Source: Bradyrhizobium sp. 186 (GTDB lineage: Bacteria > Pseudomonadota > Alphaproteobacteria > Rhizobiales > Xanthobacteraceae). From it: a stretch of 64,000 nt of DNA. The notes beneath the pieces are model-generated. The model was not told the DNA's origin and did not search any database. It saw nothing but the letters and a program-made list of their open reading frames with translations. Made by a program: the position numbers and the translations under genes. The stretch covers positions 295,289 through 359,288 of the forward strand of contig NZ_CP082165.1 of NCBI RefSeq assembly GCF_023101685.1. The letters run 5' to 3'. Shown here one piece after another: positions 2,811 through 14,461 of the stretch. How positions within the stretch are numbered: the stretch's first letter is position 1; each line of letters starts with the position of its first letter.

Positions 2811-3536
2811 TTACCGTGGATGACAAGACTCAGCTGATTGCAACCAATGCCGTGGTTTTCCGTCGCTACAGATCTCCACATTGGACGCTGCCGTGCCGGA
2901 GCTAGCCAAACGGGCTCTGGCTTCTCTGACATCTTGTATCCCGACCATTGCTCGGCTTGCGAACTTGGCTCCGCCGTGCTCCAGCACCTTTCGATACTCC
3001 GCATCTGCCAAAACGATGCAGCCCGCACGAAGCGCACCATCAGCGAATGTCAACCGAGCCGCGACTTGGCCTTCCATAAATTGCGCAAAGAAGCGGTTAT
3101 AATCATTTGCGTAACGAACATCGTCATTCAATGAAGAGATGATTACCTCATTGTAAGGGAAGTTGTCGGCCAATCGCCGAGTACTGTCGGCGGCTTCAAT
3201 ATTCGCCGAAGCCAGCTTGGTCATTAGTCCATTTAACTGAACCAGTTGAGCCGACCATTGGTTGATGTCTTTGGTGGAGCAGCCGGTCGCGGATAGGTGA
3301 CCAGCAAACAAGCTCGCATCGGACGTGAGTTTTCGGAGCGCTTCTGTTCGACTATTTATCTCTTTCTCACGGCTAATCTGAGCGGGGCCGCGCAACTTGA
3401 TCCAGTTCTGTTTTTCCTGCGGTGTAAAATAGTTCTGTGCTTGCAAGTTGCGTGTGTCTGCGAAAGCCGAACCAATCGCAAGTAGGACCAATATCGACGA
3501 GTGATGGAAAAATCTGGCGCTCAAACAAGCCTCCAA
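2811..3536 (-). CDS. secreted helical protein of unknown function
   Basis: A 241-residue protein with a clear Sec signal (FFHHSSILVLLAIG then SAFA before DTRN). The remainder is predicted mostly helical with three cysteines (TGCSTK, RAGCIVL, EICSDG). Spacing of motifs such as GC-S, a downstream Q-rich amphipathic helix, and AL-x3-C-x4-A-x-EY resembles the first half of the secreted protein at 7813-9450, so the two may be distant relatives. It sits between the integrase operon and the XRE gene. I do not recognise a family. Confidence 0.65.
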   Translation of the reverse strand: MEACLSARFFHHSSILVLLAIGSAFADTRNLQAQNYFTPQEKQNWIKLRGPAQISREKEINSRTEALRKLTSDASLFAGHLSATGCSTKDINQWSAQLVQLNGLMTKLASANIEAADSTRRLADNFPYNEVIISSLNDDVRYANDYNRFFAQFMEGQVAARLTFADGALRAGCIVLADAEYRKVLEHGGAKFASRAMVGIQDVREARARLASSGTAASNVEICSDGKPRHWLQSAESCHPR

Positions 3537-3635
3537 AAGGCACCTTGCTGCGGATTGAAAATTAGTCCGCAGTAGTTATCGATTGTATCTTAAAAGCGGT
3601 GGCCTTAAAAGCGGTTACCCGCAGGTTGTGTCCTT

Positions 3636-3863
3636 GTGAAAAGGACGCACAAAGGGCCGCTGAGGGACGTTCTGGCGAAGAATATGCGCCGGCTGCGGGC
3701 TGCGCGTGGGCTAAGCCAAGACGAACTAGCTTACGAAAGCGGGGTCAATCGAACCTACCTCAGTTCGGTCGAGCGATCCGAGAGAAACGTGTCGATCGAT
3801 AATATTGGCCGCATCGCAAAGGGGCTTGGCGTGGAGCCATGGAAGCTTCTGAAGGACAGTTAG
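3636..3863 (+). CDS. XRE-family transcriptional regulator
   Basis: A 75-residue single-domain Cro/CI-type HTH protein: NMRRLRAARGLSQDELAYES, then GVNRTYLSSVERSERNVSID, then NIGRIAKGLGVEPWKLLK. Proteins of this size often control neighbouring mobile-element genes. Its stop codon lies 5 bp from the first 16-bp palindromic site, so it marks the left edge of the cassette array. The site shares no coding frame with it, and I see no recombinase remnant on this side. Confidence 0.85.
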   Translation: MKRTHKGPLRDVLAKNMRRLRAARGLSQDELAYESGVNRTYLSSVERSERNVSIDNIGRIAKGLGVEPWKLLKDS

Positions 3864-3868
3864 CCGCT

Positions 3869-3884
3869 GTGCACGTGCCTGCAC
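3869..3884. repeat. array site 1, palindromic crossover-like site with TG centre
   Basis: GTGCACG-TG-CCTGCAC: two 7-bp inverted arms around a 2-bp centre, with one mismatch relative to the consensus left arm GTGCAGG. The same element recurs at 5939, 6904, 9667 and 12998. The layout of inverted half-sites flanking a dinucleotide is that of serine recombinase crossover sites (known for the family). Use of this site here is inferred. Confidence 0.6.
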
Positions 3885-4375
3885 GCAGATATGGGTTTCC
3901 GACCCTCCAAAACGGTGCGCTTAGTGCATCTCTAAATGGTCGTGCAATTTACCATTTGAAATTGGACTTAAGCCTATGGTGCGCAAGACATATCGGGTTG
4001 GTCTTACATGCGCTTAAGTAGGGAGTAATTGGAGTGAGGCATCTCATACCGAGTTGGAGAGTTATGGGACCGCCCTGTAGGCCGATGTAATACACGGCTG
4101 AACTGCGGCCCTGTGTTATGGAGTCTTACAGGGACATTCGAAAAATTTTTCCCGGAGATTTTTGGATCATTACAGATACTAGACACCTAGCCGCGGTTAT
4201 CGGTTTTCGACAAAGGGTGGGGGATCGGGGGATCTGACTAGCAGGAGGGTGCTGATGGTCGATTTATTTCATCTATGAAAATTGGACGCATGATCGGGCT
4301 CGCATTCACAAGGGCCAATGCGGATACTGCAATGATGGTGGTGGGACGCAGGCCGGATCGTCGCCCCGCAACGGC
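3885..4375. repeat. conserved cassette tail, copy 1
   Basis: This stretch has no convincing gene but shares ordered blocks with 6920-7290. Shared blocks are GCAGATAT-GGTTT just after the palindrome, then GTCTTACATG, then TACACGGCTGAACTGC, then TCTTACAGGG-CATTCGAAAA, then TATCGGTTTTCGACAAAGG followed by a G-run. A further match, GCGGATACTGCAATGATGGT at 4319, recurs at about 7745. The order and spacing show that two cassettes end in a common module of about 350 bp. From 4376 to 4730 I see nothing beyond short, unconvincing reading frames. Confidence 0.65.
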
Positions 4376-4730
4376 AAATGGCATGGTCCAAGCTAAGGCG
4401 CGCGGACACAAAGGCGTATCCGAGCTGCGGCCCTGCGATGAGGAGAGGCAGCTAGCCAATCGAGCCTCGCAGCGTTTGCGCCAGTTACTTGAAGGCGTTC
4501 AACCGAACTGGAGCCTGTGCGTTGCGCCTGTCAGCCGGGCACGGAAGGTACAGACCGTTGCAACTACGGACGGTCGTGCGCGGTGTTGAGGGTACAAGGG
4601 CGGGAGCGTCGATAATGATCAGTGAAGCACTGGCTGAACGGTACGTATGTGGTTCGACCACGTGCCCGCCGCGACGGAACTGGTGCTTAAAGCCGCAATA
4701 GGCCGCTTTGGTTTTGGTCGATCTTTAGAA

Positions 4731-5660
4731 CTAGCTCTGATCGGTTGGGAAATAGTCCTCAGGACGATCCTGGATTTTGTTAAACTCTTCTTCCAATGCG
4801 TCCAGTTGCGCTGGAGTGTGGAAGCGAACCTTCAGATCAAATTCGTGTGAGCCTCGTCTGAGGGCGTTGGTATTTGTGGTCCACTGAAAACTCAGATCGT
4901 CTAAAAGACGGATGACACTGGTTACCATGCCCACGGGGGCCGCTTTTAACTTCTCGAACCTAGCGGGCACCTCGGTCGCGCTGAGCTCGATCTCGAACTG
5001 CAAAAAGGCCCAACTGTGTGCAAATAGAGAATTGACCGCGTCTAATAAGGCTACAGCGTCGCCCGGAACGCCAGGCTCTCCAAGAGCCTCGCCGAGCTTC
5101 TTGTTTACAATCAGACTAATCCCCGTGACTGCGTCGACCAGTTCGTTACCCCTATCTGAAATCAACTTCATCAGTTGAATACCGTCAATTTCTCGCTTCG
5201 GCGCAGCTCGAACCAAATCGTCGAAATGTTCATACCGATCTCTAAACAAAGAGAGCTTTGACCTCAGTAGTTCGTCGCCGAGTGCGTATTCCCAGATTTC
5301 GTCGTCATGCTTGAGTGCAAGCGACCGAGCCAGCACGGTTTCTCCCGCGTACACCTCGGCGACATCCACCGTCGGCTCGTTGCGTCCCTTGGAGATCGTT
5401 TGAGGGAAAGGTGACGAGTTTGAGAGTGGCGGCGTAGGCTCATCGAGAGTGTGTTTCACTGTCGAAAGCGGCGAACGAGATTTTCGCGACGAAGTCCACG
5501 AAAGCCCCGTCCCAGGAATTCCGACAGTCGCTTTTGCCCCTGTTCTTCCAAGATTGACGGTGGCACCGTTTCCACCAAGCGAGACGCTGACGCCGCTTTT
5601 AGACAAGTTCAAACGAACGCCTGCGAAAAGCTTAAAGCTGCGACGAAATCGAAAACCCAT
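4731..5660 (-). CDS. DUF4236-domain protein, cargo of array cassette
   Basis: A 309-residue protein. Its first 55 residues are a textbook DUF4236 domain (GFRFRRSFKLFAGVRLNLSK, SGVSVSLGG, GATVNLG, VGIPGTGLSW). The rest is a helical region without recognised motifs and no membrane segment. It starts 44 bp after the stop of a displaced recombinase C-terminal half (5704-5938) in the same direction, so the two would be co-transcribed if a promoter and N-terminal half were joined at the site. DUF4236 proteins have no settled function. The gene appears intact. Confidence 0.8.
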   Translation of the reverse strand: MGFRFRRSFKLFAGVRLNLSKSGVSVSLGGNGATVNLGRTGAKATVGIPGTGLSWTSSRKSRSPLSTVKHTLDEPTPPLSNSSPFPQTISKGRNEPTVDVAEVYAGETVLARSLALKHDDEIWEYALGDELLRSKLSLFRDRYEHFDDLVRAAPKREIDGIQLMKLISDRGNELVDAVTGISLIVNKKLGEALGEPGVPGDAVALLDAVNSLFAHSWAFLQFEIELSATEVPARFEKLKAAPVGMVTSVIRLLDDLSFQWTTNTNALRRGSHEFDLKVRFHTPAQLDALEEEFNKIQDRPEDYFPTDQS

Positions 5661-5703
5661 GCTTGGCCACCATAGTCAAAAGATAACCGCACCAAACGCG
5701 CTA

Positions 5704-5938
5704 TCAGCTCTCAGTTTCACATGGCGGTTGGTCTTCTAGTCTACCAAGCACCCTCCGAACCTGCGCTGCCGACCAAAGGCCGCCGCGAGCGGTGGCAGTC
5801 TGCCGGGTATTTTGACCCGTGGCAATTGAGCCGAACGATGTGCTTCCTTCGTCCTGCAAGCTTCGGATGGTTGGCACGAGATCGAGTGCCCGCTGGTTAG
5901 CCTTGGCCGTCCTAGCGGCGCGCGCTTTTCCTAGGTCG
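5704..5938 (-). pseudogene. displaced serine-recombinase C-terminal half 2 (frame open)
   Basis: Reading the minus strand through the palindrome gives RAGTCTDLGKARAARTAKAN, then QRALDLVPTIRSLQ, then GGLWSAAQVRRVLGRLE. This matches the C-terminal part of the recombinase at 9432-10127 residue for residue over most of its length. No catalytic domain precedes it; upstream of the site the frame runs into unrelated sequence back to 6057. The frame across the site is the same as in the intact gene, so site-specific joining to the N-terminal half would give a full-length protein. I call it a displaced module rather than simple decay. Confidence 0.8.
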
Positions 5939-5954
5939 GTGCAGGTGCCTGCAC
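5939..5954. repeat. array site 2, perfect palindrome with TG centre
   Basis: GTGCAGG-TG-CCTGCAC, identical over 16 bp to the site inside the recombinase gene (9667-9682) and in the same orientation. Recombination between these two direct copies would remove 3.7 kb and attach C-terminal half 2 to the catalytic half. Confidence 0.7.
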
Positions 5955-6269
5955 GCCAGCAGAGGGTTTTCTGAGGATACGACACGGGCAAATACGCCTG
6001 ACTAGTTCCACACCCGCAACCGTTTGATGATCGGCCTGCGTGGTCTCTCAGAAGCATCCATCATGTCGCCATGGTCTTCAAAGCGTCGGATGATGAAATT
6101 GTGGAATGCTCCGGCTATCTTCGGGACGCCCGTAATCGATCCAGAGGTGCGGAAGGCAGGAAACTGATCGCCGGGCGTTTAAGTATGGGGGCTGTTCGAG
6201 GGATATCCCTCACCTTGAACGCGGCCACAGGTCCTTCTCATTTCTGATGCGAAGCTTGTTGTTTTTATC
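5955..6269. other. non-coding end of short cassette
   Basis: I see no gene, RNA or strong hairpin here. Unlike the two other cassette ends it lacks the conserved tail blocks (GTCTTACATG, CATTCGAAAA), so this cassette either never had the tail or lost it. Confidence 0.4.
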
Positions 6270-6653
6270 CTATGTCCCGTACAGTCTACGGCCATCCGGT
6301 TTGGTGATCGCAACTATACGATGTCCATCCTTGTCGCGAGCGCTCGTCAGTGTTTCCAGATCGCCGTTCGGCAGATCACTGCATTGATTGGGGAAGCCGC
6401 GCTCAATGCAATTAACCCGGAGGTGTTCGCGTGTCTTCGCATCGAGCTTGACCGTCACTTTCGGCGGTGTCTTGTGCTGTTCGCACTCCGCGACGTAGAT
6501 ATCGGCGTCGGACTTGGCGTCCTCTAAATTCTGTTCGTTTCGCCGTTGCGCGATACTTTCGCAGAATTCCATGTCACCTATGGGCTTGCTGACTGAGGCA
6601 ACGCCGCCGCTTGCGGTGTAGAAGACCAGAAATATTTTCAACATGGTCGGCAC
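6270..6653 (-). CDS. small exported protein of unknown function, cargo of array cassette
   Basis: A 127-residue protein with a hydrophobic N-terminus (MLKIFLVFYTASGGVASV) that could be a signal peptide. Four cysteines (MEFCES, VAECEQ, VNCIER, NQCSDL) fit a disulfide-bonded periplasmic protein. It begins 12 bp after the end of displaced recombinase C-terminal half 3, the same arrangement as the other cassettes. I do not recognise a family. Confidence 0.6.
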   Translation of the reverse strand: MPTMLKIFLVFYTASGGVASVSKPIGDMEFCESIAQRRNEQNLEDAKSDADIYVAECEQHKTPPKVTVKLDAKTREHLRVNCIERGFPNQCSDLPNGDLETLTSARDKDGHRIVAITKPDGRRLYGT

Positions 6654-6664
6654 TCCATATCGGG

Positions 6665-6903
6665 TTATCGATCCTGCAAACTATTGCGCGTATTCGTACC
6701 CGTGATCCGGTTAAGGACGGACCTGACTTGTGCGGCCGACCACTCGCCACCCCGAGCGGCTGTGATGCCTTTGGTATTGAGGCCAGCAGCTAGGCTCCGC
6801 AATGAATGTACCCCTTCTTGCCGAAGCTGAGTGATGATTGGTGCAAGGTCGGTTGCTCTGCTGCGAGCTTTGGCGGTGCGTACGGCTCGCTTTGGCCAGA
6901 TCG
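6665..6903 (-). pseudogene. displaced serine-recombinase C-terminal half 3, frameshifted
   Basis: The minus strand carries VRTAKARSRATDLAPIITQL, then LRSLAAGLNTKGITAARGGE, then WSAAQVRSVLNRI, clearly a recombinase C-terminal domain. Right after the palindrome the frame that follows the intact gene reads AGTCTDLAKAS and then leaves the domain frame, so a 1-nt indel separates them. Joined to the catalytic half, it would encode a truncated product. It is more diverged than copy 2, consistent with an older insertion. Confidence 0.75.
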
Positions 6904-6919
6904 GTGCAGGTACCTGCAC
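6904..6919. repeat. array site 3, perfect palindrome with TA centre
   Basis: GTGCAGG-TA-CCTGCAC: both 7-bp arms match the consensus but the central dinucleotide is TA, not TG. In serine recombinases the central 2 bp must match between partner sites, so this copy should not recombine with the TG sites (inference from family behaviour). Confidence 0.65.
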
Positions 6920-7290
6920 GGCAGATATCGGTTTGTCTGCTCTCCAAACTGTAAGGTGTTACATAGTTTCAAGAGTGCCGCGATTTGGGCTTTTGAAATG
7001 TAGTCAAGCCTCTGAGCGTATTATCTTATCGGGCTCGTCTTACATGAGATGTTGGGCCGCGATTGTTACTTTTGGGTCTTATACGCGCGGAGGTGACTGT
7101 AGGACGGTGTCATACACGGCTGAACTGCTGAACTGCTGAACTGCTGAAATGCTCAACTGCTGAACTGCGGTTTGTGTTACGTTGTCTTACAGGGTCATTC
7201 GAAAATTTTTTCGGGAAGTTTTTATACAGCTACAAACACGCTTCAATCTGTTGGGGGCTATCGGTTTCGGACTAAGGGTGGGGGAGGTGC
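6920..7290. repeat. conserved cassette tail, copy 2, with octamer expansion
   Basis: It carries the same ordered blocks as 3885-4240, including GTCTTACATG, TACACGGCTGAACTGC and TCTTACAGGG-CATTCGAAAA. At 7120-7167 the octamer CTGAACTG occurs six times in tandem (two units with one change each), where copy 1 has a single unit. The reading frame across the later blocks (CY-VLQGHSK-FS, then GYRF-TKGGG) is partly conserved between copies and may encode a short peptide or the start of the next gene. Confidence 0.65.
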
Positions 7291-7294
7291 GCTC

Positions 7295-7693
7295 GTGCAA
7301 GATCGCGATTACTATCTTTCTTTGCGACGGAAGTACGAGCCTGCGAAACCCAAGCTGGTGACAGTGGCGGAGGCACCGCCGGCGTCAGGAGGTGCAAAAT
7401 CACTGTTCAAGGGTGATACGCATCCTGATTTTGTGATTTTCGTTTGGTTCATCGATGCGACGGCCCCGGACCTATGTCGAATATTCGTGGTGCCGGCTCA
7501 GACGGTTTCAAACGATGTCTTGAAGGCACATCGTCATTGGCACAGCCGACCCACTCGCGAAGGTCAACAACCAAAGGGAGCCGATCGACCAGTCATAAGC
7601 TGGAAGGGCCGCGATATGGAAAGAAGCATATCGAATAACTTTTCTGAGAAATGGAAGAAATACGAGGATGCTTGGAAGCTGCTGGACGGCTAG
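7295..7693 (+). CDS. hypothetical protein within cassette
   Basis: About 132 residues from the GTG at 7295; an in-frame TTG at 7172 would add 41 residues that run through the conserved tail repeat. The body is YYLSLRRKYEPAKPKLVTV, then HPDFVIFVWFID, PDLCRIFVVPAQTVS, HWHSRP and ERSISNNFSEKWKKYEDAW. It has no signal peptide or membrane helix. The FVIFVWFID and RIFVVP strands with basic surroundings recall small nucleic-acid-binding or nuclease folds, but I cannot assign a family. It is the only cassette gene on the plus strand. Confidence 0.55.
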   Translation: MQDRDYYLSLRRKYEPAKPKLVTVAEAPPASGGAKSLFKGDTHPDFVIFVWFIDATAPDLCRIFVVPAQTVSNDVLKAHRHWHSRPTREGQQPKGADRPVISWKGRDMERSISNNFSEKWKKYEDAWKLLDG

Positions 7694-7812
7694 CCTAAAG
7701 GTACCGCTCTAAACCTGCGGATGCGCAGGTCTGCGTGATGATAATGCGGGTACTGCAACGATGGTCGCGGGACCACAAGCCGGATCGTCGCCGCGCGCGG
7801 CGTCGATAAAAG

Positions 7813-9450
7813 TCACTTCTGTCTGCAGAAATTCTTGACGATATAGTCTTCTGAAATAGGTTCATCCCACCCGCAGACTTTTTCGCAGTAGGCATCAAGC
7901 TTCCCAATTGGGAAGTTTGGATTGCGAACGGCTAGTGCGTCTAAGAACTGCTTATCACCACTAGTTCTCGGGCCGGGACATTTGGACCTCTCTAACTTAC
8001 CTTCACTGCATGAGTTTATATAGCTCTTAGCAAAACGGCATTCAGAGATCTCCAGCCGGCAAACGCGTTTGTAAAAGGTGACGCGATCTACTGGTGTTCC
8101 GGTCGAACAGGCTTCCGAACATTGTTGATTGAGACGGCTGTACGAGATCCCAGCGTACTTGTCCTCCATCTCCGTGACAAAAAAGTGTTGCGAATTGCTG
8201 CTTGCAACGGCGCAGCTATGTCTGCGAGAGCAGCTGTCCAATGCAGAATAGAGACGATCACAGTCTTCGCCCGGGAGCGCTTCGAGTGGATCGAGCTTGC
8301 TTTTTCGGATCGAAAACGCGCCATTTCTGAACCGTGCCGAAACGCGCTGCTGCTTCTGACGATAAACAAAGTCTGCTTGATTTGAGTGTGGGTCGAGCTT
8401 CTCGACGCGGATATTGCAGTCAATGCACTGGTCAGCAAGTGACTTGATCGTGCCCCGCCTCCCATCTTCTACAATGAGCTTCCAGTCCCAAAACCGTATC
8501 CCGTTTCCGTCCGCCGGCAATGAAACCACGACAAGATCGTAATCGCTGGTTTTAACGTGATGTTCAAAAGCGAGGTACCCGTTCTCGTTACAGAATAGCT
8601 CAGCGTTGTTTCTATACAGGCAGGTTGAAAAATGGCCCGCTGGGTTTCTCAAGATCGAATAGACCTCCTTTCTGAATGTAAAAGTATCGGGTTTGGAAGG
8701 TAGATACTCTTCCACGGCATGATCGGAGCAATTCCTCATCAGGGCGGCATCCCAGACGGCTTGCTGCGTCCGGTGAACGACATCCGAAAGTTGTTTGGAA
8801 TGTCGTTCAAGCTCCTCGATGTTGAGGGCCCACGTAACCAGATCGTCATCCGCTATGGGATCGCTAGGCTGGATTTGATCGCCGCGCGAAACGATTTCTA
8901 ATCTCGCTAGCTCAAGCTCATCGGCCAGCGCGTCTGCCCTGACGAAATTTCGTTGGAACTGCTTGAAAGTTTCGGAGTGGCATCCGGGCTTCTCAATTTC
9001 GCTAACAACGGCCGAACCACTGTCGGTCAATCGTTCGAGCAGCGAAGGAATGCGGTTTGCTAAATCGTTCAAAGCCTCCGTGGATTTTAAAGCGAAATCG
9101 TGTGCCTCACTTGATAGTATTCTGGCAGGCACAGCGCAGCAGTTTTGAAGTGCCCTCCGACGCCTCTCACCGTTAATTTCCTCGACCGCCGCGTCGTATT
9201 GTTCTTTGGTGATTGTTCCCGCCCCTAAGGCTTTGGAGAGCACCTCGAACCTGCCCTGTTCTAGCTTTGCCCATCGTTTGGCAGATTCTTCGCGTTGTGC
9301 AGGAGTAGCCATTTGTGCCGTTACGATGGGGAATTCGTAATGATCCCTGTTCGGCGGTTCTTCCGCAGATTTCGCATACTGCGGGTTTGAAAACACCAGC
9401 AATATAGTCGCTATTGAAAGCAGACGGAACGTCAAGCTGAGGCTTCGCAT
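7813..9450 (-). CDS. large secreted cysteine-rich protein, cargo of array cassette
   Basis: A 545-residue protein with a Sec signal (LTFRLLSIATILLVFS then YAKSAEE). The mature part has an N-terminal helical half and a C-terminal half rich in cysteines (ADQCIDCNIR, EDCDRLYSALDSCSRRHSC, QQCSEAC, KRVCRLEISECR, EKVCGW), implying several disulfides in the periplasm or outside the cell. Its ATG overlaps the last codons of the recombinase gene by 19 nt, so translation is probably coupled to it. This makes it the currently expressed first cassette gene. No family recognised. Confidence 0.75.
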   Translation of the reverse strand: MRSLSLTFRLLSIATILLVFSNPQYAKSAEEPPNRDHYEFPIVTAQMATPAQREESAKRWAKLEQGRFEVLSKALGAGTITKEQYDAAVEEINGERRRRALQNCCAVPARILSSEAHDFALKSTEALNDLANRIPSLLERLTDSGSAVVSEIEKPGCHSETFKQFQRNFVRADALADELELARLEIVSRGDQIQPSDPIADDDLVTWALNIEELERHSKQLSDVVHRTQQAVWDAALMRNCSDHAVEEYLPSKPDTFTFRKEVYSILRNPAGHFSTCLYRNNAELFCNENGYLAFEHHVKTSDYDLVVVSLPADGNGIRFWDWKLIVEDGRRGTIKSLADQCIDCNIRVEKLDPHSNQADFVYRQKQQRVSARFRNGAFSIRKSKLDPLEALPGEDCDRLYSALDSCSRRHSCAVASSNSQHFFVTEMEDKYAGISYSRLNQQCSEACSTGTPVDRVTFYKRVCRLEISECRFAKSYINSCSEGKLERSKCPGPRTSGDKQFLDALAVRNPNFPIGKLDAYCEKVCGWDEPISEDYIVKNFCRQK

Positions 9451-10127
9451 GTTGTTTGGTCCTGTAATCTATTAAGTATCCTTCGAACCTGTGCTGCCGT
9501 CCAAAAGCCCCCGCGAGCCGCAGCAATCTGGCGCGCATTTAGACCGGTCGCAATCGAGCAAAGCGACGTGCTTCCCGCCGCCTGCAAGCTCCGGATCGTT
9601 GTTGCAAGATCGAGTGCCCGCTGGTTGGCCTTGGCCGTTCTCGCAGCGCGGGCTTTCTCAAGATCGGTGCAGGTGCCTGCACGGCCCCGAGCACCGCCGA
9701 GGATAGTCCCGCGAGCCTTGGCGGCGGCCAGCGCGACCCTTGTCCGCTCGGAAATCATATGGGCCTCATGCTCCGCGACTGCCGCGAGTATATGAATTGT
9801 GAGCCTATTCGCCGACGGGAAATCGCAGGCTTGGAATTCCACTCCGGCGTCCATGAGGGCCGATACGAAGGCTACGTTCCGGGCGAGCCGGTCAAGCTTG
9901 GCAATAAGGAGTACGGCCCTATGCAGGCGGCAGGCTGAAAGGGCTTCCGCAAGCATTGGCCGGTCTGTACGTCTTCCCGTTTCTATCTCGGTATATTCGG
10001 TGATCAATTGTCCGGCGCCGCGTAGACGATCATTTATGGTCTTTCGCTGGGCCTCTAGGCCCAAGCCCGACCGGCCCTGACGTTGGGTGCTAACTCGATA
10101 ATACGCGATGTACCGGCCCTGCTGCAT
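9432..10127 (-). CDS. small serine recombinase with the crossover-like site inside its own gene
   Basis: A 231-residue resolvase/invertase-family protein. The catalytic domain spans residues 1-148 with S13 in YYRVSTQRQG, the conserved AKLDRLARN, and AVAEHEAHMISERTRVALAA. The C-terminal DNA-binding part is RAARTAKANQRALDLATTIR, then GLNARQIAAARGGFWTAAQV. I chose the ATG at 10127 over one 60 bp upstream because conserved sequence begins there. The 16-bp palindrome at 9667-9682 encodes residues about 149-154 (AGTCT), exactly between the two domains. Related C-terminal halves follow the same palindrome at 5939 and 6904. The downstream secreted-protein gene overlaps its end. Confidence 0.88.
   Translation of the reverse strand: MQQGRYIAYYRVSTQRQGRSGLGLEAQRKTINDRLRGAGQLITEYTEIETGRRTDRPMLAEALSACRLHRAVLLIAKLDRLARNVAFVSALMDAGVEFQACDFPSANRLTIHILAAVAEHEAHMISERTRVALAAAKARGTILGGARGRAGTCTDLEKARAARTAKANQRALDLATTIRSLQAAGSTSLCSIATGLNARQIAAARGGFWTAAQVRRILNRLQDQTTCEASA
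9667..9682. repeat. array site 4, within the recombinase coding sequence, TG centre
   Basis: GTGCAGG-TG-CCTGCAC at the boundary between catalytic and DNA-binding domains. Any insertion here would separate the domains unless the insert brings its own C-terminal half, which is what the neighbouring segments contain. Confidence 0.7.
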
Positions 10128-10300
10128 TGCGGTTGCCCCGTAACATTGTATGCGAGGTTGGTTCGATAGAATGTAACAGGCCACCAATGAGGTTCGCCTG
10201 CAAATCTATTTTTACAAGGTTGGTGGACTGGTCGGACCGGTCGGGCCTATCGGGCGGAGATCGTTCACCTACAATGAACCGGAGAATGGGAGAGCTTCAG

Positions 10301-11302
10301 ATGGGCAACGTGAACGTGGCGGTAAACGTCACATCGCAATTTTCTTTGGACCGTTTCCAAATCACGTCCGGCCTTGCGGGTGCAAAGCACGAGTTCATTT
10401 TCGATGAACGTCCAATAACACTATCGCTACCACCTGCTGAATTGGAGGGACGAGGCATTGACGTTCCAATAATGTGCGTCAAGTGGCAGTCGGAGGGAAT
10501 GGTTCCTCTGGAGTATAGGGTGAGCGTCGTCGATCTCGCTATAGAGCTTGCAGAGCCGGTCGACATCCCTGAAGAGTTGCTCGGTTTGCCCCCCAGTCAA
10601 CGCAATTTGCTGGACAAAGATAAGATCGGGAAACTCGACACCCTAACACAAGAGGCCGGCGATACCCTCAAGCGCGCCTTTGAACACTGGTTACGGGTAC
10701 TTCGGTGGAAATCGCGGACCGGAAGCATCGGAGAACCGCAGATAAAATACGCCGGGCCTGATGGAGGAGGATCATTTCTCACAGAGAGGGCAACCCAGAA
10801 ACGGTTGTGGCGTCCACCGCACCGGATTAGGGCGACGTTGGAGAAGGCAGTGACTTCAATGGAGTGGGATGCTGTCCAGGTCGCACTGAGCAGTAACAAG
10901 CAGCCTCCAGTTTGGATTGATTTCCTTTTTGAAGCGAGAATGCGAATGAATAATGAAGATCGCGTGGGAGGAGTACTTACCCTGGCGATTGCATTCGAGG
11001 TCAGTTTGCGGAAAATATTTTCGGCGGAATTGGAAAAACTCAACGCCGACCCCGCTGTGTTGGCAGTCCTCGACGTCGCAAACTTGCGTGCTTTGCTAAC
11101 TTGGCTGAAGAAAACAAGAGCTTGGAACGGAGATTGGGAGGATGCGACCGAATTCAGCACGTTACATAAGCTCATGGACTACCGAGATGGAGTGATGCAT
11201 ATGGCCAAAGTTGAGAGGCTCAACGATGCTGAGTTGCGTTCAATGTACGCGGCAGTTGAGAAGTTCGCCTATTTTACGTCGCGCGTTTTGGGGTTGGATT
11301 GA
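10301..11302 (+). CDS. HEPN-like protein divergent from the recombinase
   Basis: A 333-residue protein; the ATG at 10301 has GGGAGAG upstream and is preferred to the farther in-frame ATG at 10127, which would overlap the recombinase start. The N-terminal part is beta-rich without recognised motif. The C-terminal third carries an R-x4-H motif (MDYRDGVMHMAK) in a helical context (GGVLTLAIAFEVSLRKIFS, LHKLMDYRDGV, YAAVEKFAYFTSRVL), as in HEPN proteins, many of which are RNases in defence or toxin systems (known for the superfamily). The domain call rests on this motif and helical pattern alone. It is divergently placed, 173 bp from the recombinase. Confidence 0.6.
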   Translation: MGNVNVAVNVTSQFSLDRFQITSGLAGAKHEFIFDERPITLSLPPAELEGRGIDVPIMCVKWQSEGMVPLEYRVSVVDLAIELAEPVDIPEELLGLPPSQRNLLDKDKIGKLDTLTQEAGDTLKRAFEHWLRVLRWKSRTGSIGEPQIKYAGPDGGGSFLTERATQKRLWRPPHRIRATLEKAVTSMEWDAVQVALSSNKQPPVWIDFLFEARMRMNNEDRVGGVLTLAIAFEVSLRKIFSAELEKLNADPAVLAVLDVANLRALLTWLKKTRAWNGDWEDATEFSTLHKLMDYRDGVMHMAKVERLNDAELRSMYAAVEKFAYFTSRVLGLD

Positions 11303-11433
11303 GCCCGACGCGCGCGCGGAATTCCGCGTCCGGGCGCATGTTCCTATAGATGCCGGCAGGCGGCTACATATGATATATAGCTGATAATTATCGTCGTGAT
11401 TGGACTGTTGTCCCCCGAAGGGGGACGATAGTC
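11303..11433 (+). terminator. two hairpins downstream of the HEPN gene
   Basis: Directly after the stop is a GC-rich inverted repeat centred on CGCGGAATTCCGCG (about 11303-11335). A second hairpin, GTCCCCC-GAA-GGGGGAC with extra pairing outside, lies at 11402-11433. Neither has a strong T-run. The first motif recurs before csbD. Confidence 0.45.
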
Positions 11434-11729
11434 GAGGCGCGACGATAATTCTTGCGCATCGAGCGCGGAAGCGAAAATAGAAAAGCAAATCGCTATGCCT
11501 GCGGTGTTGCCATTGCGGCTATGGCGGTCGGCTCGCGACGCGAGGATAGTAGCCCCAGCCCCGGTAGCTGGTTCGATGTTTCGGGCAAGACGTGAATTGA
11601 AGTTCGGCATGATATTTGAGCTTTGAAGTTTTGGTCCGCGATTTCGTTATTTCGGCCGCGACCGCCGAAATTTTGGATAACATTCCGCGCAGACGCCAGC
11701 ACGATCCGGCAAATACGGACGGTAAAAAA

Positions 11730-11888
11730 ATGCCAAATCGGGGCGTTCACCTCATTGGGCACGATTTTGACTTAGCGGATTGGGCCGAAGTCTTGAAGCC
11801 GTCATTCGACCCACGGGTGATGCGGAGCGACGATGCGTTTGTGCTCCGATGGACCGGCTTTGAACGGACATGCCGTCAACTTCCGTAA
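11730..11888 (+). CDS. short hypothetical protein, possibly truncated
   Basis: About 52 residues (MPNRGVHLIGHDFDLADWAE, VLKPSFDPRVMRSDDAFVLR, W) from the ATG at 11730. The composition is protein-like and unlike the flanking spacer. It ends in a less convincing tail (ERTCRQLP), suggesting a 3' truncation or frameshift. Between 11434 and 11729 I see nothing else. Low certainty. Confidence 0.35.
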   Translation: MPNRGVHLIGHDFDLADWAEVLKPSFDPRVMRSDDAFVLRWTGFERTCRQLP

Positions 11889-11913
11889 AGACCGCGGACT
11901 CCCCTCTTCGTGC

Positions 11914-12285
11914 TTATTCGCTTGCTCCTTTTTTGAAGTAATAACGGTTCGGATGCTCATGGCCTGCATACTGCGTCCTATCTGTGTACCAGTTGTCGGA
12001 GTGAACCTTGAAGGCGTGCATCGCCATCAGTCCCATCGCTTTTGCAGCAAGTGCTTCATCGAGTGCCTTCTTCCACAGTATTTCCCACGGCAGGTCTTCC
12101 CAGTCAGCCTTCGCCTCGAAGCCGGGGACCGTCACCTTGCTATGGGTGCTGATCATCCGTTGGGTGATGCCGTCGATCACGTCGTTGAACTGAACAGGGG
12201 TGAGCCACTTCTTGGTGATCAAATCCCACATGTCTGGAAACGATTGCTTGGTAATTGGTCGGCTGGTCATCGCGTCGAATAACAT
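11914..12285 (-). CDS. hypothetical protein
   Basis: A 123-residue soluble protein rich in Trp and Lys (FPDMWDLITKKWLTPVQFND, WEDLPWEILWKKALDEALAA, HSDNWYTDRTQYAGHEHPN). It has no signal peptide or membrane helix. It lies 79 bp downstream of another minus-strand gene, possibly in one unit with it. No recognised family. Confidence 0.6.
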   Translation of the reverse strand: MLFDAMTSRPITKQSFPDMWDLITKKWLTPVQFNDVIDGITQRMISTHSKVTVPGFEAKADWEDLPWEILWKKALDEALAAKAMGLMAMHAFKVHSDNWYTDRTQYAGHEHPNRYYFKKGASE

Positions 12286-12364
12286 GTTGGTGCTCCTTTC
12301 TGGGCAATCTTTTCGGTCGCGTGAAGCGAAGGCCGGTTGAACCGTCGGCTCGAGGGTTAGTTTT

Positions 12365-12898
12365 TCAACGCGGCCAGACTGCCAAATGTGGGAATTGTTG
12401 CTCTATCTCTTCGAATGTAATTTGAGCTTTGAAGTGCGCCAGATGAGGCTCGTATTCCTTTCGCTTTTGTGCACTGAAGAAAATGCCGGTGGAAGCCATA
12501 TGATGAGGTAGAACTTTCGCGGGCGGCTTTCTGGCCCAGCATTGTGCGCGAAGCGGATAACCTCGCGACTGAATGCCGTCGGACTTAAATTTATCTTGCG
12601 GCTGTTTGACCTCGAAATGCAAAGCGAAGCGGAGGCTCGATTTGTTTTCAAAGATTGTGAATAGGTCGGTTTCTTTTCCGCTGCAGCCGTCGCATCTGCA
12701 TTTCTCGGTGAAGTGAAACCTCCACCATTCGGCGGTCAAGTTAGCCCTATGTGCGCTGATTTCCCGATTGAGAATGCGAGCCTCCGCGAATTCTGCGAAT
12801 TCGGACTTTGATAATACCCAGCGCCGGAAGCTTGGGTCGTCGATCATCGCGCGCGCGATGGGTGAGGCGTAGAGATATTCGATGGACCCATACTTCAT
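12365..12898 (-). CDS. hypothetical protein, candidate PD-(D/E)xK-like fold
   Basis: A 177-residue protein; the ATG at 12898 is chosen because AGGAGGG lies 5 bp upstream. It contains a possible zinc pair (EKCRCDGCSG), followed by ETDLFTIFENKSSLRFALHF and EVKQPQDKF. An acidic residue on one strand and an E-x-K on the next is the pattern of PD-(D/E)xK nucleases, which would fit an island gene, but one pattern is not proof. It lies just left of palindromic site 5 in the orientation that the other cassette genes have. Confidence 0.55.
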   Translation of the reverse strand: MKYGSIEYLYASPIARAMIDDPSFRRWVLSKSEFAEFAEARILNREISAHRANLTAEWWRFHFTEKCRCDGCSGKETDLFTIFENKSSLRFALHFEVKQPQDKFKSDGIQSRGYPLRAQCWARKPPAKVLPHHMASTGIFFSAQKRKEYEPHLAHFKAQITFEEIEQQFPHLAVWPR

Positions 12899-12997
12899 AT
12901 GTACCCTCCTATCGTGCACCCCTACGATCCGGATGATCATGGGATAGGGAAGTTTCCTAATCCTAGCGGCGCACTTTAATCTTTGACAGGCAAATCG

Positions 12998-13013
12998 GTG
13001 CAGGTGCCTGCAC
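12998..13013. repeat. array site 5, solitary perfect palindrome with TG centre
   Basis: GTGCAGG-TG-CCTGCAC, preceded by ATCG as at the other sites, but with no recombinase coding sequence on either side. It may be a secondary target or the far edge of a former insertion. Confidence 0.6.
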
Positions 13014-13069
13014 GGAGAACGCTTGCTGGAGTTGGAGTATTACCGTGTAGTGCGGCAGGGTCTTAGTGC

Positions 13070-13093
13070 GCGCGCGCGGAATTCCGCGCGCGC
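13070..13093. promoter_or_regulatory. 24-bp GC-rich perfect palindrome upstream of csbD
   Basis: Alternating GC arms flank GGAATTCC, a perfect 12+12 palindrome, followed by more alternating CG/CA sequence and TATAGATGCC. A close relative with the same core and the same TATAGATGCC lies at 11311-11352. The position before a stress gene suggests an operator or a strand-structure element, but its function is unknown. Confidence 0.4.
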
Positions 13094-13153
13094 ATAGCTA
13101 CGCGCGCACGTGCGTGCTTATAGATGCCCGTAGCTACATCTAAGGAGTGAGTT

Positions 13154-13345
13154 ATGGATCGCGAGCATGTCAAGGGAGTCGCCGAAAAGACGAAGGGCTC
13201 CATCAAGGAAGGCGCCGGGAAGGTGACCGATGACAAGAAGATGCAGGCCGAAGGCAAGGCCGATAAGGCCAAAGGTGCTGCCCATAGCGCAGTAGGCGAT
13301 GTGAAAGACGCTGCACGTGATGCGGCTGACGCGCTGAAAAAATAA
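13154..13345 (+). CDS. CsbD-family stress protein
   Basis: A 63-residue charged protein typical of CsbD: MDREHVKGVAEKTKGSIKEG, AGKVTDDKKMQAEGKADKAK, GAAHSAVGDVKDAARDAAD. These proteins are abundant under general stress and are predicted disordered or helical; their biochemical role is unclear. It has a good ribosome binding site (AAGGAG) and its own terminator. I saw no clear EcfG-type promoter upstream. Confidence 0.9.
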   Translation: MDREHVKGVAEKTKGSIKEGAGKVTDDKKMQAEGKADKAKGAAHSAVGDVKDAARDAADALKK

Positions 13346-13368
13346 ATACTCAACGATCGCACTTCTAC

Positions 13369-13395
13369 GCCGCCGCTTTCAGGCGGCTTTTCTTT
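13369..13395 (+). terminator. rho-independent terminator of csbD
   Basis: GCCGCC-GCTTTCA-GGCGGC followed by TTTTCTTT, 24 bp after the csbD stop. Confidence 0.8.
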
Positions 13396-13439
13396 GGCCA
13401 TATGCAACGGCGCAGCGGCGCCTTCACTGTAAGCGTCGT

Positions 13440-13810
13440 TCTGGCTTTGAGGGATTGCTCGCGATAGGCCCAGGAAAGAAGTTGGTCGAAGTTGCGGCTC
13501 GGATGACCGTTGACAATCCAGCTCAGGAGGTTGGTAAGGCAGGCGAGCGGGTCGAGATCAGTAAGCTTGGTGTCCGTGGAGGCGACCGCGCAGTGTTCGG
13601 CACTACGGTCGGGCCCAGCGGCTTGGCTCAACTCGGTCCACTGACGGAGCTGTGCGACGGCCGCCAAATCAGCCTGGAAATCCTGGCTCAATTCTCGCTG
13701 AGCAGGCCGCGCCGCGAGCCGCTCGTATTCGCTCGCCAGTTTCAGCGTCGCGTCCTTTGCTTTGGGATCATCCAGCTTCGACGCCAATAAAGACAGAGGT
13801 CGAGAAGTTC
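13440..13810 (-). pseudogene. IS66-type transposase C-terminal relic and a second degenerate fragment
   Basis: On the minus strand, LTDLDPLACLTNLLSWIVNG then HPSRNFDQLLSWAY resembles the conserved C-terminus of IS66 transposases (normally DPxAYLxDVLxRI-x-HPxxRIxELLPW). Upstream, another degenerate piece (DDPKAKDATLKLASEYERLA) looks like a small rhizobial orphan protein. The open frame joining them is probably accidental. Confidence 0.5.
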
Positions 13811-13843
13811 CTAACCACTGTACGCGCAGCTTGAGGTGCATCC

Positions 13844-14137
13844 ATGACAAGCATCTCAATATCAGCGGGTCACGCTGGAGTGGTCGCAGCGACAATCCGT
13901 GATGGGGCGTCCGAGCCGGCGGCTGCCAAGATCATCCCGCTGCCATTCAGTCGAGAGCGATACCTGATTGTCCAGACCAGAACGGACTGCGAATTGCTGC
14001 GACGGAACGTCAATGTCGTTGTCGAAAGCCTCATTGCTCTTAACTGCCTGCTCGAAAATATCGATGACAGGTCGATGCGCGAGGGATTTCAATCTCGGGT
14101 CGCGCGGCTGAACGAGATGCTCTTGCTTCGGCTTTGA
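13844..14137 (+). CDS. hypothetical protein
   Basis: A 97-residue soluble protein with GAGGTG upstream of its ATG. Its sequence includes PLPFSRERYLIVQTRTDCEL and LLRRNVNVVVESLIALNCLL, then a helical C-terminus. The composition and ribosome binding site argue for a real gene. No recognised domain. Confidence 0.55.
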   Translation: MTSISISAGHAGVVAATIRDGASEPAAAKIIPLPFSRERYLIVQTRTDCELLRRNVNVVVESLIALNCLLENIDDRSMREGFQSRVARLNEMLLLRL

Positions 14138-14461
14138 GCAGTTATCCGCCGCGGATCGCCTGCTGCAGGAGATGCTTCCCTATACCTGAGGCAGGGCGGA
14201 TTGCGCTGCACAGTGTCCAGGTTGCGATGTCCTGCAGGGATTTCTGTTCTCAAAGCCTCTCTCAGCCGACACTTTTGAAAGGTATCTGCGCTCAACTGTT
14301 TTCGGTGTCACAAAACTGAACGCTCGACTCGCCGACGGGTCGGCGAGGCATTCGGCTTATGCGCCCCACGACCACCATCCATGTACACGGCATCGGCGAA
14401 GCAGAAGAATCGATCCGTACCTCTGATGTTGGGCTCCGCGCTGCGGTCGCGCGGCACGGGC

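Follow-up and report, generated by a model that had tools for sequence, protein, structure and literature searches.

Within a 64,000-nucleotide stretch of the genome of Bradyrhizobium sp. 186 (the window; positions 295289–359288 of genome G000, at the end of the contig labelled C2), a 16-bp palindrome lies inside the gene of a small serine recombinase, between the parts that encode its catalytic and putative DNA-binding domains, and recurs downstream ahead of two further recombinase C-terminal halves (C-halves). The best explanation of this arrangement, and in our view a probable one, is that the palindrome is the crossover site of this recombinase and that cassettes made up of a C-half and a passenger gene are exchanged at it. 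Site-specific recombination at the palindrome would be the most economical account of the homology breakpoints, the conservation of codons, the mosaic structure of homologous proteins, and the recurrence of a tail-and-site module in another genome.

A pattern scan of the window for GTGCAGGNNCCTGCAC finds exact copies at 5939–5954, 6904–6919, 9667–9682 and 12998–13013 and a copy with one arm mismatch (GTGCACG) at 3869–3884, all assigned to the minus strand, which confirms the five positions given in the initial annotation. When up to three mismatches are allowed the window holds 10 matches, as against a mean of 3.72 in shuffled sequences, 1 of 100 of which reached 10. Across the whole genome (10,772,313 bases in 2 contigs) the exact palindrome occurs only at the four places in the window, all within 7.1 kb, and three further places carry the one-mismatch form (3869, plus two on the other contig); the same pattern written backwards, which served as a control, occurs at 4 places with at most one mismatch. 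In the genus, 15 of 195 genomes contain the exact palindrome (this one counted) and 13 of 195 contain the control, and no genome has more than two copies save this one with its four. Given these near-equal frequencies, a single match in a genus genome is normally background, and the lone palindromes found in other genomes of the genus (L008–L021) were rejected as such.

The sites have more in common than the palindrome itself. Their core dinucleotide is TG at 3869, 5939, 9667 (where the coding strand reads CA) and 12998, and TA at 6904. On the coding strand the bases 3′ of the palindrome are CGATTT at 12998, CGATCT at 9667 and 6904, CGACCT at 5939 and AGCGGC at 3869, with CGATTC beside a palindrome in a further genome, G204, discussed below. 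The CGAT or CGAC flank is therefore present, on the same strand, at every window site except 3869, which also carries the arm mismatch, and the four sites with a TG core agree in direction as well. Because the CGATTT flank is kept at 12998, where no C-half lies behind it, the flank looks like part of the site rather than coding sequence. From 12998 leftward, the distances from site to site are 3331, 2763, 965 and 2070 bp. A search of positions 3000–14000 against Rfam gave no match at E up to 1.

The gene that holds the central site (9432–10187, minus strand) encodes a serine recombinase with a PF00239 catalytic domain at residues 27–161 (3.3e-24), numbered from the TTG at 10187; the database copy of the protein, P0001, begins 20 residues later. 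Its N-terminal half (N-half; 9683–10187, minus strand) comprises the catalytic domain and a long helix at residues 128–158, and contains Ser33 of an RVS motif, which by that motif we take to be the active-site serine, and presumably also the catalytic-domain arginines Arg100 and Arg103 of the motif KLDRLAR. Its C-half, which we call C1 (9432–9666, minus strand), is a putative DNA-binding domain resembling HTH_62 (residues 182–241; 26.6 bits, slightly below the cut-off of 27); of the two orphan C-halves, C3 scores 28.4 bits for this family and C2 matched no family. The palindrome encodes R-A-G-T-C-T, residues 169–174, and so lies between the two domains, where the initial annotation had placed it. 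In an AlphaFold model (15-row alignment, mean predicted local distance difference test score (pLDDT) 76, predicted template modelling score 0.46), residues 164–174 have a pLDDT below 50 and sit between the 128–158 helix and confidently modelled C-terminal helices, and matches in the PDB (4m6f, a DNA-invertase, and 1gdt, the gamma-delta resolvase) span the catalytic part and the helix only. The nearest named homologues are Bradyrhizobium proteins of 88% identity or less. The site-bearing gene encodes a PF00239 serine resolvase domain and has no IntI match in an NCBIfam scan; a PF00589 integrase gene at 1278–2381 lies outside that scan.

The palindrome is also where homology between the C-halves ends. 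The DNA of C1 and C2 shows 79% identity along a stretch of 239 bases that reaches the palindrome edge, and in the 60 bases past that edge the ungapped identity is 22% for C1 and C2 (a background value), 18% for C1 and C3 and 30% for C2 and C3; local alignments end at 9683/5955 and 9685/6922. These breakpoints support the view that the palindrome behaves as a recombination boundary. As proteins, C2 is 81% identical to the metagenomic protein P0002 and 73% identical to C1, and C3 matches the C-half of metagenomic P0009 at 84% identity, its unusual end included, as compared with 57% and 58% for C1 and C2. Being far closer to P0009 than to its neighbours, C3 is not a local duplicate and came from elsewhere; judged by these identities, at least one C-half in the array is of foreign origin.

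Furthermore, the site seems to have been kept as DNA. The recombinase of the window and those of two other genomes of the genus, G189 and G208, share 154 residues identical in all three, and at 54 of these (35%) the same codon is used. The three genes retain all four arm codons, CGT, GCA, ACC and TGC, and differ in the Gly codon, whose third base is a free core base. Nine shared residues flank the arm codons in the stretch compared, and eight of these change codon. Since the genes of G189 and G208 resemble each other closely (85% over 793 bp), this codon test amounts to little more than one independent comparison. Among 120 homologues, the best of 8000 scored candidates and compared as proteins, the encoded motif has R in 117, A in 111, G in 120, T in 115 and C in 108, followed by T or N in 106 and D in 120, and so nearly invariant a peptide in a disordered linker fits a constraint on the DNA.

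Read along the minus strand, the array begins at 12998 and runs through genes of 191 and 123 codons (with a gene for 391 residues on the opposite strand) to the recombinase N-half, the site at 9667, C1 and a 545-residue gene; it continues with a 173-residue open reading frame (ORF) on the opposite strand (7172–7693, plus strand), a tail, the site at 6904, C3 and a 127-residue gene; and it ends with the site at 5939, C2, a DUF4236 gene, a second tail, the site at 3869 and a helix-turn-helix (HTH) gene on the opposite strand. The units 9667–6904, 6904–5939 and 5939–3869 (B, C and D) each contain one site and a different gene in a single orientation. The initial annotation had the copies at 5939 and 6904 each followed by a separate C-half without a catalytic domain, and this stands with one correction: C2 (5704–5938, minus strand) is in frame with its site, and C3 (6665–6903, minus strand) is two bases short after the site by comparison with P0009 and is therefore out of frame with the site at 6904.

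It had likewise described a different gene in the same direction after each C-half, and this is what we find. The unit B passenger (7813–9450, minus strand; 545 residues) has an N-terminus that by eye resembles a signal peptide and no match in Pfam, PADLOC, PHROG or NCBIfam; the unit C passenger (6270–6653, minus strand; 127 residues) looks exported, again by eye; and the unit D passenger (4731–5660, minus strand) is a DUF4236 protein of 309 residues. None of the passengers resembles another. Their starts lie close to the C-half ends, at −19 nt (an overlap with the recombinase gene), +11 nt and +43 nt, respectively. The tails of unit B (6920–7283) and unit D (3885–4222) are homologous in part, and stretches of the former are also homologous to the module in G204. 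An imperfect hairpin is contained in three tails; covariation in it is weak, with a compensatory change in just 1 of 34 pairs. In the tail of unit B, seven overlapping imperfect copies resembling GCTGAACT with 8-bp spacing occupy 7108–7179, within the loop of the imperfect inverted repeat that the three tails share.

It is informative to examine the homologous proteins in the same light. Their N-halves are on average better conserved than their C-halves (78% versus 60% over 7140 protein pairs), and they do not all carry the same C-half, a uniformity that would have spoken against the initial annotation, as some are N/C mosaics. P0008 and P0045 have C-halves that are 98.5% identical and N-halves that are 72.5% identical; P0072 combines an N-half 97% like that of P0047 with a C-half 97% like that of P0090, the N-half of which is nearest to P0111 (96%). 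Mosaic triples that pass the thresholds number 27, drawn from 10 different mosaic proteins and hence not independent, and in 13 of them the six site residues fall at least partly within the best breakpoint interval. Correlations between windows of the protein alignment are 0.58 within the C-half and 0.13–0.41 from there to N-half windows, which supports treating the C-half as a block. An 80-residue metagenomic protein, P0123, begins VVIRYL-RAGTCTDL and has the form of an orphan C-half whose boundary is the site. A region search with the recombinase C-half returned 19 proteins and, beyond the mosaics, nothing further.

The close subfamily of this recombinase is rare among the genomes covered. 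Only 4 of 265 genus genomes (G000, G189, G208 and G159) have a match below 1e-110, and 46 of 265 have one below 1e-60; G000 alone passed 1e-84 in a sample of 391 genomes of the family, and among 229 genomes of the order three others did better than 1e-80, the locus lacking the palindrome in each. In G189 and G208 the sequence GTGCAGGAACCTGCAA lies inside the recombinase gene and is the sole TGCAGGNNCCTGCAC-type site of the genome. Both genes are found in islands at tRNA-Gly that have direct repeats of 48–75 bp and a homologue of the window's PF00589 integrase. Islands of about 9–11 kb at tRNA-Gly(ccc) occur in the loci L184 (6013–17088), L185 (5838–14504) and L186 (689–10253), with homologous tyrosine integrases; each holds a serine recombinase of this kind and differing genes, AbiU-like in L184 and a methylase with Vsr in L186. 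In G159 (a genome 87% complete), a variant palindrome, TTGCAGGNNCCTGCAA (TTGCAGG..CCTGCAA), is present in three copies, all in an island with a related recombinase, and is absent from four other genomes compared; the sites flank the gene of a C-5 methylase and, likewise, a block that holds Vsr and an ATPase-type protein (PADLOC REase_II).

A query that held a site and tail together matched 2 of 223 genomes, G000 itself and G204. The single exact palindrome of G204 adjoins stretches that match the tails of units B and D at 84% identity over 125 bp and 76% over 188 bp, a short start resembling that of a C-half (TDSAKARA) stands on the far side of the palindrome from the tail, and a 56-bp piece located 80 bp past the tail is 86% identical to the 3′ end of the unit C gene (6225–6280). 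More widely, the 14-bp core was found in 2 of 40 genomic recombinase loci (624 kb), L053 (G189) and L054 (G159), both of this subfamily, and in none of 80 viral recombinase loci (974 kb). In loci of at least 5 kb, every palindrome of 6-bp arms around a 2-bp core that recurs three times or more is of the TGCAGG type; these belong to the window, G159 and the phage locus L183, the last of which had itself been fetched with the palindrome. A repeated palindrome as a general companion of serine recombinases was sought in the recombinase loci and not found.

The palindrome is absent from 19 loci of DUF4236 homologues; none of the matches listed for 12941–14300 (131 of 257 genomes matched, with at most two candidates each) reaches the site at 12998 except the genome's own; and a plasmid collection gave no DNA match to 3000–9700. 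Recombinases of below 60% identity are encoded by 21 plasmids, and a scan of genome contigs gave one relative only, from Geomonas (49%). Among 100 serine-recombinase loci checked for orphan C-halves, a second C-half-like match was present at L120, L145 and L154. The one at L120 was rejected, as it is the end of a different long ORF; at this locus, on a viral contig (1259–1924), a serine recombinase is closely trailed by a different ORF that ends in a similar C-terminal domain.

In the mechanism that we envisage, the crossover site of the recombinase and its close relatives would comprise the palindrome and the outer CGATYT-like flank on the C-half side. The site in the recombinase linker would recombine with the site of a circular cassette that carries site, C-half, passenger gene and tail; the incoming C-half would replace that of the enzyme, with the new passenger gene placed directly behind it, and earlier C-halves and passengers would be displaced downstream to form an array of direct repeats. 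We infer that this enzyme does the cutting, that the cassettes circulate as in integrons, and that a swap of the C-half alters binding.

A number of observations weigh against this reading. The C3 reading frame is shifted relative to the site at 6904, and the TA core of that site is unlike those of the others; together these mean that the cargo cannot, for unit C as it stands, be under the translation of the recombinase, as the initial annotation had it. Nor does simple downstream stacking of older units, which it also proposed, account for the upstream site at 12998. Its proposal that cassettes insert at the palindrome is partly supported: the break of homology at the palindrome edge, the foreign C3, the common direction of the TG-core sites and the N/C mosaics speak for it, and against it stand G189 and G208, which carry the internal site with no second copy and no array, and G159, whose recombinase reads RPGTAAD at the site position and has no internal palindrome. 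In addition, the sites of G159 have differing cores (CG, TA and TA), and the middle one falls inside the 3′ end of an 806-residue ATPase ORF. The full array is known from one genome only, and no strain carrying another cassette at this position turned up in searches with the tail or the recombinase. In the protein data, 14 of the 27 breakpoint intervals miss the site, ten ending 2–24 residues upstream of it, three 29–50 residues upstream and one lying downstream, and the N-half windows correlate poorly among themselves too (0.05–0.60), so that the proteins alone do not pin the breakpoint and the exchange may extend beyond the site. A search with the orphan C2 gave three proteins, of which P0123 alone is bounded at the site. 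Finally, tyrosine integrase genes are present in the same window and in the islands of G189, G208 and G159, and the enzyme that cuts could be another one.

It is also worth considering what else might have produced such an array. The elements that inserted could have been circles like those of the suicidal integrases, each with a complete recombinase gene that was split on integration, so that nested integrations followed by loss of N-halves left a hybrid gene and orphans. The principle has been published (PMC8371274) for archaeal tyrosine integrases whose N and C parts have differing histories; moreover, the unit 12998–9667 has a site at one end and an N-half at the other, and the N/C mosaics would fit equally well. 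We nonetheless regard this as unlikely, as there are three C-halves but a single N-half between the five sites, where more N-halves would be expected, and the position at which an N-half should stand in units B and D is taken by a homologous tail. Another history, in which one unit of recombinase and gene was duplicated in tandem and then decayed, with the palindrome merely inherited and mobility long ended, would agree with the homologous tails of units B and D and with the frameshift in C3. Against it stand passenger genes that are mutually unlike and a C3 whose resemblance to a foreign protein far exceeds that to C1 or C2, and of the explanations considered here it appears to us the least credible, with very little probability.

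A further alternative takes the palindrome out of recombination altogether and makes it an operator or a chromosome-organisation site, bound by the adjacent XRE protein or by one like Noc, KorB or ParB; the orphans would then be remnants of ordinary homologous recombination. One argument for it comes from phages, and it also weighs against the main reading. The sequence TGCAGGNNCCTGCA occurs 45 times in 90,379 bases of the IMG/VR phage contig IMGVR_UViG_2936046547_000001 (L183, L301 and L325 among its pieces) and 37 times in 70,682 bases of the phage contig IMGVR_UViG_3300050120_000158 (L333 and L362 among its pieces), the counts covering these parts only of contigs of 94–101 kb. In those parts, tblastn with ten window proteins gave nothing at E up to 0.1, and no recombinase. 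Counted without a control, 35 of the 45 and 26 of the 37 copies are close to the stop of some ORF of at least 80 residues, no more than 200 bp downstream or 20 bp upstream of it, and 29 and 20 copies also fall inside some ORF of at least 150 residues. Pattern scans of viral sequence (105 stretches and at least 120 stretches) bore on this point only. Distantly related phages have palindrome versions of their own, TGCAAANNTTTGCA 11 times in 30 kb of Agrobacterium phage JP1 and GCAATCGATTGC 9 times in 47 kb of Rhodobacter phage RcTiptonus, and both phages share short stretches with the two contigs; the word palindrome is absent from the main text of the RcTiptonus paper. With dozens of copies and no recombinase found, another protein may use the same sequence. 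The same 14-mer, it appears, can be a dispersed phage element, perhaps a phage-encoded operator, and either the resemblance is a coincidence or the phage sites are targets. A further point in favour of an operator is that an XRE gene adjoins a site both in the window and in G159. What this alternative leaves unexplained is why two orphans lose their homology right at the edge of the palindrome, why the site lies at a domain border with its arm codons fixed, and why a tail-and-site module recurs in G204, and we consider it improbable, more so than integration by circles of the suicidal type.

Several features at the edges of the array deserve mention. Between the sites at 12998 and 9667, the interval 10127–12940 holds, besides the recombinase, genes for 391 residues (plus strand), 123 residues and 191 residues (both minus strand), none with a Pfam match, and the first of these overlaps the recombinase start. 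Inverted repeats lie near the right edge at 11386–11450 and at 13070–13093, the latter a perfect, GCGC-rich 24-bp repeat. At the left edge, the degenerate palindrome begins 5 bp past the stop of the XRE-type HTH gene (3636–3863, plus strand), and one of the G159 sites similarly lies directly against an XRE HTH gene, at its 3′ end; the genes divergent to the two are weak homologues (35%, 2e-8), that in the window encoding 241 residues (2811–3536, minus strand). Farther left, a fragment resembling a tRNA 3′ end (1224–1250), with an exact copy on contig C1, stands beside the PF00589 integrase gene, and the two may possibly be the scar of an integrated island.

A comparison with known systems shows how the proposed crossover site and cassettes would depart from them. 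Integrons use the tyrosine integrase IntI with attI and attC, the latter being imperfect, foldable 59-base elements. The likeness is in the array of passengers, each bounded by a site in the same orientation, beside a recombinase gene; the differences are that the recombinase here is a serine enzyme, that the putative site is a double-stranded 16-bp palindrome with a short flank rather than a folded attC, and that the entry site would lie within the enzyme gene, with each cassette bringing part of the enzyme. The small serine resolvases and invertases have palindromic sites with a 2-bp core, like the putative site here, and the same PF00239 catalytic domain, but to our knowledge their crossover sites do not lie in the linker of their own gene, and the enzyme of the window has an HTH_62-like C-terminal domain that is apparently exchanged. 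Shufflons and other phase-variable systems also swap the 3′ part of a gene by recombination; shufflons do so with inverted sites and a separate tyrosine recombinase, whereas the sites here are direct repeats and the swapped gene would be the recombinase itself. In the serine invertase switches of Hin and Gin the sites are inverted around a segment, in contrast to the four TG-core sites with their one orientation. In the archaeal suicidal integrases (of the SSV1, pTN3 and pT26-2 type), tyrosine enzymes described in PMC8371274 as exclusive to archaea, integration splits the gene. These share with the window a site (here a putative attachment site, in keeping with its position and codon conservation) inside their own gene and N and C parts of differing histories; they differ in that the enzyme here is a serine recombinase, that its gene could remain intact on gaining another C-half, and that the cassettes are small, and the flanking of an integrated element by a C-half and an N-half is not what the array displays. 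On sequence grounds, the array appears to be neither an integron, as the site-bearing gene is not IntI and attC is lacking, nor a suicidal integrase, and it would work like a cross of both. Among the papers listed in searches of the open-licence literature of PubMed Central, judged by titles and the beginnings of abstracts, we found no description of such a system.

Tentatively, then, the array may represent a form of bacterial gene capture in which the DNA-binding domain of the recombinase rides on the cassette, so that each capture rewrites the 3′ half of the gene, sets the new passenger gene behind it in close linkage, and may shift the choice of site. Under such a capture system, the related metagenomic enzymes would be a pool of interchangeable halves. 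If this is true, the capture of gene cassettes has a second origin, based on a serine recombinase and with the enzyme itself among the exchanged parts, and one could test directly how the specificity of recombinases evolves when domains are exchanged at a fixed site. Modular recombinases of natural origin that use a short site would become available as well, and the existence of a large group of metagenomic recombinases whose linker seems to be conserved as DNA, and not as protein, would be explained.

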